In this document: positions 2,574 to 7,678 of the stretch, piece after piece | Layout of the letters: each line of letters starts with the position of its first letter | How positions within the stretch are numbered: the first letter of the stretch is position 1 | NCBI GenBank assembly: GCA_025355465.1 | Contig: JANXZO010000024.1 | Location: 62,001 to 126,000, forward strand | From: Bacteroidales bacterium | GTDB taxonomy: Bacteria > Bacteroidota > Bacteroidia > Bacteroidales > FEN-979 | Direction: 5' to 3' | Length of the DNA: 64,000 bases | Made by a program: the position numbers and the translations under genes | The notes under the pieces: model-generated | Told to the model about the DNA's origin: nothing | The model's database searches: none | Seen by the model: the letters and a program-made list of their open reading frames with translations, nothing else

Positions 2574-2912
2574 TAAAAGTAGATATTTTAGTAAGCAGAA
2601 TAAGTGCCTGTAAGCGCCTGAAATTTATAAACAATGTTAGGGTATGCAAACATACGATAAAATTATGTTTTTGCATAGGCAAATATTTAATCTTTTATCG
2701 CAAAATATTAATAACATTAATTTATGGAAAAAAAGTGCATATGTCAAAATTTTCGATTCAATCTAAGGTGTTATGTTTTAAAACGCAACATGGTCATTTT
2801 GGTTGATTAAGGCATCGTTAGGGCGTTGGAAGTGTGTCGGAAAGTTTTCTCATTTGTTTTCCGTGAAGTTTTATTTAATCGTATTTTTGAAATCGAATAT
2901 TCAAAATTTCAG
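2574..2912. other. Divergent intergenic region between ackA and the GH3 gene
   Basis: About 340 AT-rich bases with no supported gene. It holds an inverted repeat (TATGCAAACATA at 2643-2654 against TATGTTTTTGCATA at 2664-2677) and one copy of the 12-mer CAATGTTAGGGT at 2632-2643, which also occurs upstream of two other minus-strand genes. It probably carries the promoters of both flanking genes. No confident -33/-7 pair was found. Confidence 0.5.
2643..2677. promoter_or_regulatory. Imperfect inverted repeat, possible operator
   Basis: TATGCAAACATA (2643-2654) and TATGTTTTTGCATA (2664-2677) are reverse complements except for two extra T in the right arm, separated by 9 bases. There is no T-tract, so an operator or promoter palindrome is more likely than a terminator. 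On the minus strand the left arm reads TATGTTTG, which fits a TAnnTTTG -7 element for ackA, but no well-spaced -33 was seen. Confidence 0.35.
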
Positions 2913-4433
2913 ATGGCACTTATCAATTCCGTTATTTCCTGGTTAATGAAAAAACGGATCCACCAGATTGACCTCTTCATGAAATATCCGCATGAGGTAC
3001 AGACTGAATGGCTCCGGAAATTACTCAATAACGCCAGGGGAACGGAATGGGGAAGGAGATTTGAATTCAAATCGATCCTTAACCCCGAACAATTCAACGA
3101 AAGGGTACCGGTTCAGGATTATGATTCACTGAAAGGTTCGATTGAACGGCTGAGAAAGGGTGAGCAGAACATTCTTTGGCCTTCGGAGATAAAATGGTTT
3201 GCAAAATCCTCCGGGACAACAAGCGACAAAAGCAAATTTATCCCTGTAAGCCAGGAGGCGCTTGAGGAGTGTCATTTCAAAGGTGGAAAAGACCTGTTGT
3301 CAATTTATTGCAACAACAATCCGGATACCTTACTGTTCGATGGCAAGGCAATTGCCATGGGTGGTTCACACCAGATCACCGAAGTGAATAATGAATGTTA
3401 TTATCAGGGCGACCTTTCTGCGATCCTGATTCAGAATCTTCCGGGATGGGTAGAATTCATGCGTACACCAAACCTGCAGATTGCTTTAATGGATGAATGG
3501 GAAAGCAAGATCGAAAAGATGGCAGAGGCAACCATTCTCCATGATGTGACAAATATATCGGGAGTCCCTTCATGGACACTTCTTTTATTTAAACGAGTTC
3601 TGGAGATTACCGGGAAGAAGCACCTGCTGGAGGTTTGGCCTAATTTTGAACTTTTTATTCATGGCGGAGTAAATTTTGCCCCTTACCGTGAGCAGTTTTT
3701 GCGAATACTTCCTTCCGATGCCGTAAATTTTCTGGAAACATACAATGCATCTGAAGGTTTTTTTGGGATTCAGGACAGGATACATGCTGATGACATGCTG
3801 CTGATGCTTGACTATGGAATTTACTATGAATTTATCCCCATGGATCAGGTTGATGAAAAATTTCCCAAGGTACTGCGGCTCGACCAGGTTGAACTTTTTA
3901 CCAATTATGCAATGGTCATTACCACCAACGCCGGATTATGGAGGTACATGATCGGCGATACCGTTCAGTTTACTTCGTGTTATCCTTACAGGATCAAAAT
4001 CACCGGACGGACCAGGAATTTTATCAATGCTTTTGGGGAGGAGCTTATTGTCGACAATGCCGAGAAAGCCATGGCCATTGCCTGTGAGCGCAGTAAGGCG
4101 GTCATAGCGGAATACACGGCAGCCCCTGTGTACCTGGAAGGGAACCGGAAAGGAGCCCATCAGTGGTTAATTGAATTTGAAAGAGCGCCCACAGATCTCG
4201 CATTTTTCACCAGCACACTGGATACCGCACTTAAATCGCTTAATTCTGATTATGAGGCCAAGCGCTATCACAACCTTTTGCTTGATGACCCTATCATCCA
4301 CATCATGCCTGAACGAACATTCTACCGGTGGCTTAAATCCAAAGGAAAACTCGGAGGGCAGCATAAAGTTCCGCGCCTGTCGAACGACCGGAAATATATC
4401 GATGAAATACTGAAATTAGTTGAACGGGATTGA
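2913..4433 (+). CDS. GH3-family acyl-adenylating (acid-amido synthetase-like) protein
   Basis: A 506-residue member of the GH3 branch of the ANL (acyl-AMP forming) superfamily. The three nucleotide-binding motifs are visible: SSGTTSDKSK at residues 99-108, ETYNASEGFFG in the middle, and LWRYMIGD about 100 residues later; LKSKGKLGGQHKVPRL lies near the C-terminus. Plant GH3 enzymes join amino acids to auxin or jasmonate. The bacterial homologues, common in Bacteroidota, have no settled substrate, so only adenylation chemistry is claimed. The ATG at 2913 (MALINSVISWLMKK) matches the start of bacterial homologues as I recall them; longer in-frame extension upstream is AT-rich and not family-like. 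No Shine-Dalgarno is seen. Confidence 0.85.
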   Translation: MALINSVISWLMKKRIHQIDLFMKYPHEVQTEWLRKLLNNARGTEWGRRFEFKSILNPEQFNERVPVQDYDSLKGSIERLRKGEQNILWPSEIKWFAKSSGTTSDKSKFIPVSQEALEECHFKGGKDLLSIYCNNNPDTLLFDGKAIAMGGSHQITEVNNECYYQGDLSAILIQNLPGWVEFMRTPNLQIALMDEWESKIEKMAEATILHDVTNISGVPSWTLLLFKRVLEITGKKHLLEVWPNFELFIHGGVNFAPYREQFLRILPSDAVNFLETYNASEGFFGIQDRIHADDMLLMLDYGIYYEFIPMDQVDEKFPKVLRLDQVELFTNYAMVITTNAGLWRYMIGDTVQFTSCYPYRIKITGRTRNFINAFGEELIVDNAEKAMAIACERSKAVIAEYTAAPVYLEGNRKGAHQWLIEFERAPTDLAFFTSTLDTALKSLNSDYEAKRYHNLLLDDPIIHIMPERTFYRWLKSKGKLGGQHKVPRLSNDRKYIDEILKLVERD

Positions 4434-5108: not shown

Positions 5109-5858
5109 ATGCGCATTATAGGCATTATACCTGCACGTTATTCGTCTACCCGTTTTCCCGGCAAACCCCTCGTTGTCATTGAAGGAAAGACAATGGTACA
5201 GCGGGTTTACGAACAGGCGAAAAAATGTCCGTTGCTTGATACGGTTTTTGTCGCTACCGATAACCAGGCTATATTTAATCATGTTGCCACGTTTGGAGGC
5301 CAGGTGATGATGACCGGGGCGCATCACAAGAGCGGAACGGAAAGATGTCAGGAGGTTGTGTCCATGCTTGCAAACGAGGGTGTTTCCTTCGATGCGGTGA
5401 TAAATATTCAGGGGGATGAACCTTTCATTGATCCCGGGCAGATTGAACAGCTGGCATCCTGTTTCATCCATGGGAATGCTGAGATCGCTACCCTGATAAG
5501 AAGAATTTCTGACAACGCGGTGTTAATTGACCCCAATGTGGTTAAGGTGGTGGTTGGAGTTAACGGGAATGCACTTTATTTCAGCAGGTCAGCCATCCCC
5601 TTTACCCAGGGAGAAACGCAACAGGACTGGCTCAGCAAGACCACCTATTACCAGCATATCGGAATTTACGGATATTCCAATCAGGCCCTGGCACAGATTG
5701 TAGCCCTCACGCCCGCTGCCCTGGAAACCGCTGAATCACTAGAGCAGCTTCGCTGGCTTGAAAACGGATTTACAATTAGCACCAAACTTACTGATTACGA
5801 AAGCATAGGTGTCGATACGCCATCAGATTTATTAAAAATTACTAACAGAACCTTCTGA
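5109..5858 (+). CDS. kdsB: 3-deoxy-manno-octulosonate cytidylyltransferase (CMP-Kdo synthetase)
   Basis: 249 residues, the normal KdsB size. The N-terminus IIGIIPARYSSTRFPGKPL carries the nucleotide-binding R/K signature; VFVATDN, NIQGDEPFIDP and HIGIYGY follow in family order. It activates Kdo as CMP-Kdo for lipid A inner-core synthesis, which implies a Gram-negative outer membrane with Kdo-containing LPS. It fits with the LPS heptose gene rfaE2 elsewhere in the window, though the two are 23 kb apart. Confidence 0.96.
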   Translation: MRIIGIIPARYSSTRFPGKPLVVIEGKTMVQRVYEQAKKCPLLDTVFVATDNQAIFNHVATFGGQVMMTGAHHKSGTERCQEVVSMLANEGVSFDAVINIQGDEPFIDPGQIEQLASCFIHGNAEIATLIRRISDNAVLIDPNVVKVVVGVNGNALYFSRSAIPFTQGETQQDWLSKTTYYQHIGIYGYSNQALAQIVALTPAALETAESLEQLRWLENGFTISTKLTDYESIGVDTPSDLLKITNRTF

Positions 5859-5905: not shown

Positions 5906-7003
5906 ATGGACATCCGGAATTGTATTTCCGAACTGTTGGTTTTACATGACTGTGTGATCATTCCGGGGTTCGGAGGGTTTATAGGGAACTATTCTCCGGC
6001 ACGCATTGATCCGGTGCACCACGCATTTGTGCCTCCCGGGAAAAAGCTGCTCTTTAACGTCAACCTTAAACAGAATGACGGGTTGCTGGCCAATTGTGTG
6101 GCGGCAACGTTCGGTATTTCATACGTGAATGCCTGTTCCGGGATTGATGAGATAACAGCGGAGATACGGCACCTTCTCAAAGCCGGAAAATCTTTCACTA
6201 TTCCCGGTGTTGGTCACCTCACGCAGGGACGGGAAGGGAACCTTCAGTTCGAGCAGGACAAAACCGTCAACCTCCTTCCGGATGCATTCGGACTGACCTC
6301 CTTTATCTCTCCTCCGGTTGGACGAGCTACAGGTTCGGCAAAAACAGTCACTTCGGTTTTAACACCGCTGCAAAATACAGAGCTAAGACGTTACTCCGTT
6401 TCAAGAACCCTCAAATGGGCGGCTATCCTTGCAATTCCTTTAGGTGCTGCAGCCATCATCGGCATCTCTCAGTTCGATAAAATTACACCATCCGGGGTGA
6501 ACAATGCCGGGATTCTCGGGTCTGTCTTTTCACGGTTTTCTTCGGCTTCCCTGGTGGAGAAAAAGGAGGCTCCGGCGATCCCTGACGAATCTACCTACCA
6601 GCAAGACCCTGCTCCTTCTGTTTTTGACACACCTTCAACAGAATCCGCGGCAAATATTAACGAGTCCGGGCTGACTACCTCCACCTCATTGCCCGATCCG
6701 GCCGAAAACGGTGATTACAAGGCTGCCACACCCGAGCAAACCGTGCAGGAGGTTCCTGTGTCTTCGTCCAATACCAATGACCGGTTTGCTGTTATTGTGG
6801 GGGCGTTTAAATCCAAAGAGAATGCGGAAAAGTTCATTCGTGAGCTAAAGCAGAAAGGGACCGAAGCGTTGATTTTTGACCGTTCGAGGGGTGGGCTTTA
6901 CCGTGTTACCATCGGCACTTTCGCCATTCGCGAAGAGGCAGATCAGTTGCTCTCTTCCACCCGCAACAGCGAGTTCTCAGGAGCTTGGCTGTTAGCGAAA
7001 TAA
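5906..7003 (+). CDS. HU-like DNA-binding domain fused to membrane segment and SPOR domain
   Basis: 365 residues. Residues 1-130 (MDIRNCISELLVLHDCVIIP, then GFGGFIGNY) resemble the HU-CCDC81 type of bacterial HU-like domain that is common in Bacteroidota. Residues about 168-187 (TLKWAAILAIPLGAAAIIGI) form one membrane helix. A Ser/Thr/Pro/Glu-rich linker follows, and the last 75 residues (RFAVIVGAFKSKENAEKF ... YRVTIGTF) are a SPOR domain, which in other proteins binds denuded septal peptidoglycan. Predicted topology: HU part in the cytoplasm, SPOR part in the periplasm. I chose the ATG at 5906; a GTG at 5897 is also in frame. A role in linking nucleoid and division site is inference. Confidence 0.82.
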   Translation: MDIRNCISELLVLHDCVIIPGFGGFIGNYSPARIDPVHHAFVPPGKKLLFNVNLKQNDGLLANCVAATFGISYVNACSGIDEITAEIRHLLKAGKSFTIPGVGHLTQGREGNLQFEQDKTVNLLPDAFGLTSFISPPVGRATGSAKTVTSVLTPLQNTELRRYSVSRTLKWAAILAIPLGAAAIIGISQFDKITPSGVNNAGILGSVFSRFSSASLVEKKEAPAIPDESTYQQDPAPSVFDTPSTESAANINESGLTTSTSLPDPAENGDYKAATPEQTVQEVPVSSSNTNDRFAVIVGAFKSKENAEKFIRELKQKGTEALIFDRSRGGLYRVTIGTFAIREEADQLLSSTRNSEFSGAWLLAK

Positions 7004-7012
7004 TCATTCTCT

Positions 7013-7678
7013 GTGGCGAAGAAGAAACTTATCCATTTTAAGGAGAACCTGACCTTTCCGCACCTTTTTCAGCCGAAGTATCACGAGCTGCTACCGGATT
7101 TCCTGATGAAGGACAAATGGCATTCGGGATTTTTTCTGAATGATTTGCCTATTGTGGTCGAACTTGGTTGCGGGAAAGGAGAATACACCGTTGGTCTTGC
7201 CAGGGCTTACCCGGATAAAAATTTTATCGGGATCGACATGAAAGGAGCACGTTTATGGCGCGGATGTAAAACTGTCGCCGAGCAGCAATTGAAAAACGTT
7301 GCCTTCGTTCGTACACTGGTTGACAACATTGAAAGAGTCTTCGCTCCCGGTGAGATCTCAGCGATCTGGATCACATTCCCGGATCCGCAACCAAAAAGGG
7401 AACGCAAACGACTTACCTGTCCGGATTTTTTAGCTCATTACCGCAACGTCCTTAGCCCTGATGGAATCATCCACCTGAAGACGGATGATGCTGATTTTTT
7501 TCAGTATACGCTTGGTGTTGTCAATGACGGAGGACATCATCTGCTGTGGTCTACCGATGATCTTTACCATTCAGGAACCATGGAGGATGTAATTACCATC
7601 CAGACATACTATGAGAAAATATGGCTTGAGGAGAAAAAAAAGATCTGTTACGTACGATTTCAACTGGCTGAAACATGA
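7013..7678 (+). CDS. trmB: tRNA (guanine-N7-)-methyltransferase
   Basis: 221 residues, a class I SAM methyltransferase. ELGCGKGEYTVGLA near 48-61 is the SAM-binding loop, IGIDMKGARLWRG follows, and FPDPQPKRERKRLT is the TrmB signature that contacts tRNA. It makes m7G46 in tRNA. The start is a GTG at 7013 (an in-frame stop lies 12 bases upstream and no ATG is available), 9 bases after the HU/SPOR gene. Its last 4 bases overlap the next gene in ATGA form, so the two are translationally coupled. Confidence 0.95.
   Translation: MAKKKLIHFKENLTFPHLFQPKYHELLPDFLMKDKWHSGFFLNDLPIVVELGCGKGEYTVGLARAYPDKNFIGIDMKGARLWRGCKTVAEQQLKNVAFVRTLVDNIERVFAPGEISAIWITFPDPQPKRERKRLTCPDFLAHYRNVLSPDGIIHLKTDDADFFQYTLGVVNDGGHHLLWSTDDLYHSGTMEDVITIQTYYEKIWLEEKKKICYVRFQLAET

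Follow-up and report, generated by a model that had tools for sequence, protein, structure and literature searches.

A SPOR-Domain Protein With a Predicted Cytoplasmic HU-Fold Module as a Candidate FtsN-Like Septal Protein of Bacteroidota

Introduction

The link between the Z-ring and the building of the septal wall in Bacteroidota is, to our knowledge, poorly known. The present analysis concerns a protein that carries an HU-like module at one end, a SPOR domain at the other and a membrane helix in between, and that is encoded by one gene in a 64,000-nucleotide stretch of a Bacteroidales genome (contig JANXZO010000024.1, hereafter the window). A computational paper by Burroughs and colleagues from 2017 is said to deal with the CCDC81-type HU clade, and a role as chromosome tether or sensor was reportedly predicted there for the bacterial members. 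The literature search, which had most subscription papers outside its reach, found, among the papers listed, no experimental one on the protein itself. Here, we favor a different reading, to which we assign a probability of roughly 0.48, namely that the protein is bitopic, sits in the inner membrane at the septum and acts in the manner of FtsN, with an HU-fold module for docking on a protein partner rather than on DNA. The gene is widespread and is a candidate for the FtsN position in Bacteroidota.

Domain Architecture and Predicted Topology

The features of the gene and its direct neighbors are collected in Table 1. The sequence-only reading had proposed an HU-CCDC81 domain and a SPOR domain with a single membrane helix between them, and this layout with its coordinates is borne out by an AlphaFold2 model and by Pfam scores above the cut-offs, namely 75.3 bits for PF18174 (HU-CCDC81_bac_1; curated cut-off 26), 58.8 bits for PF18175 (HU-CCDC81_bac_2; curated cut-off 35) and 55 bits for PF05036 (SPOR; cut-off 21). 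The layout is thus well beyond chance, and homologues begin at about the same position as the 365-residue frame. Judged by these matches, the protein belongs to known Pfam families, whose existing names agree with the earlier comment that fusions of this kind had already been seen in sequences. Its architecture is ordinary for its class. Scanning the window for tRNA genes and Rfam families gave no hits.

Table 1. Coordinates of the gene, its domains and its neighbors in the window
Feature	Position	Strand	Basis
Upstream neighbor, cytidylyltransferase	5109..5858	+	Pfam CTP_transf_3, E 1.2e-53
Whole gene, 365 aa	5906..7003	+	ATG at 5906, stop at 7003
HU-CCDC81_bac_1 half, residues 3-58	5912..6079	+	Pfam E 3.6e-21; model
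HU-CCDC81_bac_2 half, residues 59-128	6080..6289	+	Pfam E 5e-16; model
Membrane helix, residues 168-187, basic N side	6407..6466	+	Hydrophobicity; AlphaFold2
Periplasmic linker, residues 188-291	6467..6778	+	AlphaFold2; low conservation
SPOR domain, residues 292-361	6779..6988	+	Pfam E 1.1e-14; phmmer 1x60 E 3.4e-7
Downstream neighbor, methyltransferase	7013..7678	+	Pfam Methyltransf_4, E 2.5e-30

In the full-length model (21 sequences), the blocks of the module reach pLDDT values of 90-98 up to residue 120 and the SPOR domain 90-97, the membrane helix reaches only about 50, and the linkers are mostly below 50 and mostly disordered, with a short helix (residues 203-212) predicted at low confidence in the periplasmic part. 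The module modeled alone (49 sequences) has a mean pLDDT of 91.6. Its first half is modeled with an HU-like α2 and β-saddle and lacks the first helix of HU, and its second half is HU-like with a five-residue turn in place of the HU arm.

Conservation and topology were assessed on 108 sequences, comprising the target, 78 of at least 591 relatives in named genomes and 29 from a phylum sample. A membrane segment, defined as a hydrophobic 19-mer (Kyte-Doolittle ≥ 1.2) beyond residue 110, is present in 103 of the 108, and Lys/Arg are commoner on its N side in 101, hence the prediction of a cytoplasmic module and a periplasmic SPOR domain, as the N-in topology of the earlier reading had it. In its own genome, which has four SPOR matches and one PF18174 match, the target is the only SPOR protein with an internal membrane helix (score 1.97) and thereby the only one with an FtsN-like layout. 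In the other three, the best hydrophobic stretch starts at frame residue 7-23, with nothing later above 0.93, and one of them looks amidase-like by eye. The genome encodes FtsA, and frames that by eye are FtsZ-like and FtsQ-like adjoin the ftsA gene. SPOR domains bind denuded glycan, which is enriched at the septum (PMC6895207).

Conservation and Charge of the Module

Conservation peaks in the first HU half (2.71 bits per column), which suggests that this half has a constrained partner, followed by the second half (2.11), the SPOR domain (2.0), the membrane helix (1.52), the cytoplasmic linker (1.33), the juxtamembrane periplasmic part (0.94) and the linker (0.72). V17, P20, G23, F50, N51, G59, G103, and G129 are kept in all 108 sequences. 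Past the membrane helix, short clade-specific motifs occur in flavobacterial homologues such as L011, L015, and L025 and in Bacteroidales homologues such as L072, L089, and L095, with KIQEATF and PLPAVTLSV in one group and NPLVTAEFE in another, and these may be periplasmic interaction sites.

The module has lost HU-type DNA-binding features, namely the arm motif and the basic charge. Its pI is 6.2 in the target, with a median of 5.8 and values above 8.5 in only 4/108 sequences, as against 10.8, 10.0, and 10.3 for the three HU proteins of the same genome. Its median net charge is -2 (range -12 to +6), compared with +17, +10, and +11 for the HU frames as read. Over 23 residues past the first β-turn, Lys/Arg number 6-8 in the genome's HUs and at most 5 (median 3) in the modules. 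A loose HU-type arm motif, which was derived from the three HU sequences themselves, is found in all three and in none of the 108 modules. A stricter RxGxNP-type pattern is likewise missing from all modules and was dropped as the sole test, being present in just one of the three HUs; it was replaced by the looser motif and by charge counts over equal lengths.

These results bear directly on the main rival of protein docking, a nucleoid tether or sensor at the septum, whose HU-like module would touch the chromosome there and so tie segregation to the closing of the wall. The septal part of the earlier proposal stands by prediction through the SPOR domain, whereas its other part, a module for holding or sensing DNA, is weakened, because the module is acidic, the HU-type arm motif is absent and only one column of the module is basic in at least 70% of the sequences. 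The arm itself is replaced by the turn in the second half, and close to the arm tip the target has a proline that is shared, in the aligned column, by just 18/108 sequences. Tethering does draw support from the invariant basic residue at position 46 (Lys or Arg in 108/108), from a median net charge of +2 in the HU1 hairpin, from the predicted cytoplasmic location and from the HU fold itself, which is considered next. On balance we regard a DNA tether as possible yet rather unlikely.

Structural Relatives

At the level of sequence profiles, a search of the PDB returned HU/IHF matches only (best E 9.7e-5), with no microtubule proteins among them. PF00216 (HU/IHF) has no match in the target at E ≤ 1 in Pfam, and some distant relatives do match it. 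When the module model was searched with Foldseek, the top rank went to the HU chain 1huu_C (E 5.4e-4) and the next to 8snb_1K (E 1.7e-3, 147 columns), from an entry on the doublet microtubule of sea urchin sperm, and the full model gave the same order.

Re-alignment of 997 of Foldseek's top 1000 chains with VIA-align, in which the absence of a family excludes no family, placed 8v3l_A (Z 9.0, 113 residues) and then 8snb_1K (Z 8.0, 122 residues) at the top, a Z of 8-9 being near the level of 7-8 that is common as the best value for models with no clear match. Further alignments over both halves were obtained with 9e2g_2N (Z 6.2), 8g2z_0T (Z 5.8), and 9io5_T. At Z ≥ 5, the natural PDB chains that align across both halves come from four microtubule-doublet entries, to which 8v3l_A, 8snb_1K, 9e2g_2N, and 8g2z_0T were assigned by entry alone, and from one mycoplasma gliding motor. 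Two engineered single-chain IHF entries also span the module (89 residues), and a few unrelated chains span more of it at Z 3.0-3.5 only. Natural HU/IHF chains align at residues 55-126, apart from two aligned ranges beginning at residue 13. HU chains match the second half at Z ~7 over residues 56-125 (some 70 residues), which identifies this half as an HU fold.

The ciliary chains would offer a precedent for the use of such a module on proteins. IJ34 is a CCDC81 homologue that stabilizes CFAP52, as stated in the accessible portion of the study that lists 8G2Z as its model (PMC10105768), and its globular domain anchors to the A-tubule, as described in the accessible portion of another (PMC11961760). 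From its length and aligned range, 8g2z_0T is probably IJ34. A similar tandem arrangement would thus serve protein contacts on tubulin in cilia, and by analogy the bacterial module might act alike. The gliding-motor chain of Mycoplasma mobile (9io5_T, residues 153-276) aligns over both module halves with Z 7.8 and 6% identity, and the available part of the paper on this motor (PMC11864180) uses none of the terms "HU protein," "histone-like," and "DNA-binding."

Distribution and Variants

With a profile built from 49 modules, matches at E ≤ 0.001 were obtained in 248 of the 295 class genomes, of which ten matches, weaker than E 1e-6 by eye, may be ordinary HU. In the phylum sample, PF18174 is matched at E ≤ 0.01 in 74/296 genomes, with 60/73 in the class and 14/223 outside. 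Eleven of these 14 are encoded by frames of only 73-182 residues and may again be ordinary HU. The frames of the other three (L135, L158, and L159) are 339-412 residues long and have a hydrophobic segment further on, L135 being assigned PF00216 and SPOR by Pfam and L158 and L159 being read by eye. L135 and L158 have a full-length HU first half (PF00216 E 3.3e-8 in L135), a second HU-like half, a helix and SPOR, a form that may show the ancestral state.

Among the 47 class genomes that escaped the profile, nine were searched for SPOR. Three of them (G348, G296, and G349; loci L144, L152, and L156) have a protein with a by-eye divergent HU-like N-terminus, a membrane helix and a SPOR match, a fourth (G076; L143) has helix and SPOR with the HU part invisible, and in the other five only secreted-looking SPOR proteins, or none, were seen. 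Two relatives from fecal "UNVERIFIED: Bacteriophage sp." records (L160/L161; MT835920.1 and MT836993.1) encode the module in frames that by eye continue through a membrane helix to a SPOR-like C-terminus. Their neighboring frames look UDP-glucose dehydrogenase-like, rfbC-like and like a LuxR-type regulator, so that both records have by eye the appearance of Bacteroidota chromosome pieces; a phage origin was dismissed and they were taken as mislabeled bacterial DNA.

Variants were sought in 16 stretches around weaker PF18174 matches, from which eight proteins were scanned with Pfam. SPOR was not detected at E ≤ 0.05 in seven of them (L120, L121, L122, L123, L130, L132, and L124), and by eye the tail of L124 looks SPOR-like. 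All of them retain a hydrophobic segment (1.66-2.79) and an HU-CCDC81 match, even if a weak one. L121 and L122 terminate at most one residue past this segment, and the other four variants with no SPOR-like tail 19-74 residues past it. By eye L128 resembles L120, and the remaining unscanned stretches have SPOR-like ends, save for an 87-residue frame (L134). What varies less is thus the module together with its membrane anchor, in keeping with a role in anchoring or docking. Since these variants keep both and show no SPOR match (6/8 of the scanned relatives), a universal FtsN-like activation cannot be claimed, and a periplasmic activator function of the FtsN type is not universal in the family.

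Gene Neighborhood

The scan of named genomes yielded at least 591 relatives among at least 594 stretches, of which 80 were retained. The gene was recovered by the ORF caller in 78 of these, and the other two (L058 and L091) were left out of the neighborhood and conservation counts; neighbor families were named from one or two members. In the window, the gene lies between a cytidylyltransferase gene, which we take to be KdsB-like, and a methyltransferase gene, presumably TrmB-like. The cytidylyltransferase family is found directly upstream on the same strand in 18/78 loci and the TrmB-like gene directly downstream in 8/78, and in 40/78 a thioesterase gene lies downstream in the same orientation, no more than 400 bp away. 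An M23 peptidase is present in 27/78 loci and metG in 13/78, and no division gene is a constant neighbor in the 78. The neighborhood was rejected as a functional clue, as there are several contexts (cytidylyltransferase with the TrmB-like gene, DprA with thioesterase, MetG) and none is explanatory. The gene dprA occurs somewhere in 42/78 loci, and divergently within 600 bp in 31/78, for no apparent functional reason. At 2826-4433 of the window, two genes upstream of the cytidylyltransferase gene, a GH3-family protein is encoded with N-terminal, central and C-terminal Pfam domains; the GH3 family is best known for plant hormone conjugation.

Proposed Mechanism and Alternatives

In the mechanism that we favor, the periplasmic SPOR domain would bind denuded septal glycan, the flexible linker would span the periplasm and a single helix would cross the inner membrane. 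The tandem HU-fold module would dock from the cytoplasm onto a protein partner, most likely a part of the FtsZ/FtsA ring, and its docking would couple this ring to the remodeling of the septal wall. The septal location, the docking on protein and the choice of partner are each deduced, and they are suggested by the internal-helix SPOR protein in a genome with FtsA, by the conserved first half, by the loss of HU features and by the microtubule and gliding-motor matches. The modest Z-scores, the SPOR-less variants, the varying neighborhood and the absence of the R/KDY motif from the target speak against it.

Ranked behind both this FtsN-like docking protein and the DNA tether is a less specific role in the envelope, which we consider unlikely. 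The protein would then be a membrane-anchored scaffold for wall or outer-membrane building outside the divisome, and SPOR would add septal enrichment only in some lineages. The relatives that lack a detectable SPOR domain and keep the helix are what this role would lead one to expect, and the upstream neighbor in the clade of the window resembles a gene of the LPS pathway. However, SPOR is retained in most close homologues studied, and its reported affinity for denuded septal glycan points to the septum. A further-reaching version of the preferred docking reading, which we deem improbable, is that the module is an ancient cytoskeleton-docking device that couples the FtsZ ring to the membrane and the septal wall in Bacteroidota, while its eukaryotic relatives kept its use on tubulin on becoming microtubule inner proteins. 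If so, the HU fold switched from DNA to the binding of tubulin-family filaments in bacteria, before cilia arose. Docking of the module on FtsZ, if true, would also suggest a bacterial origin for a module of microtubule inner proteins.

Comparison With Known Systems

The target does not differ in any essential way from the HU-CCDC81_bac and SPOR architecture (PF18174, PF18175), as it has both halves followed by a membrane helix and SPOR. With HU and IHF it shares the fold of its second half, yet its module is acidic, in tandem within one chain and devoid of the arm motif. The likeness to FtsN lies in the predicted N-in orientation with a single helix, a periplasmic linker and a C-terminal SPOR domain, and FtsN (1uta) is among the SPOR matches of the target in the PDB. 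In contrast to FtsN, which has a cytoplasmic tail of ~32 residues, the target has a folded cytoplasmic module of 130 residues. It scores 27.4 bits with the FtsN model TIGR02223, matched via SPOR alone, against a cut-off of 107.65, and hence is not filed as FtsN. FtsN also has an essential activating helix in the periplasm; in the periplasmic part of the target, the only predicted helix is the low-confidence one at residues 203-212. The R/KDY motif, which in the cytoplasmic tail of proteobacterial FtsN binds FtsA, as given in the accessible part of PMC7613929, is absent from residues 1-167 of the target and present in 2/108 homologues, the motif being a proteobacterial one. The eukaryotic CCDC81 models of Pfam have no match in the target at E ≤ 1 and weak matches below the cut-off in three distant relatives. 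To the CCDC81-type microtubule inner proteins (IJ34, CCDC81b), the target may be linked by the tandem arrangement, which aligns over both halves to chains of doublet-microtubule entries at 12-18% identity, with the difference that these proteins are bound to microtubules and not to a membrane.
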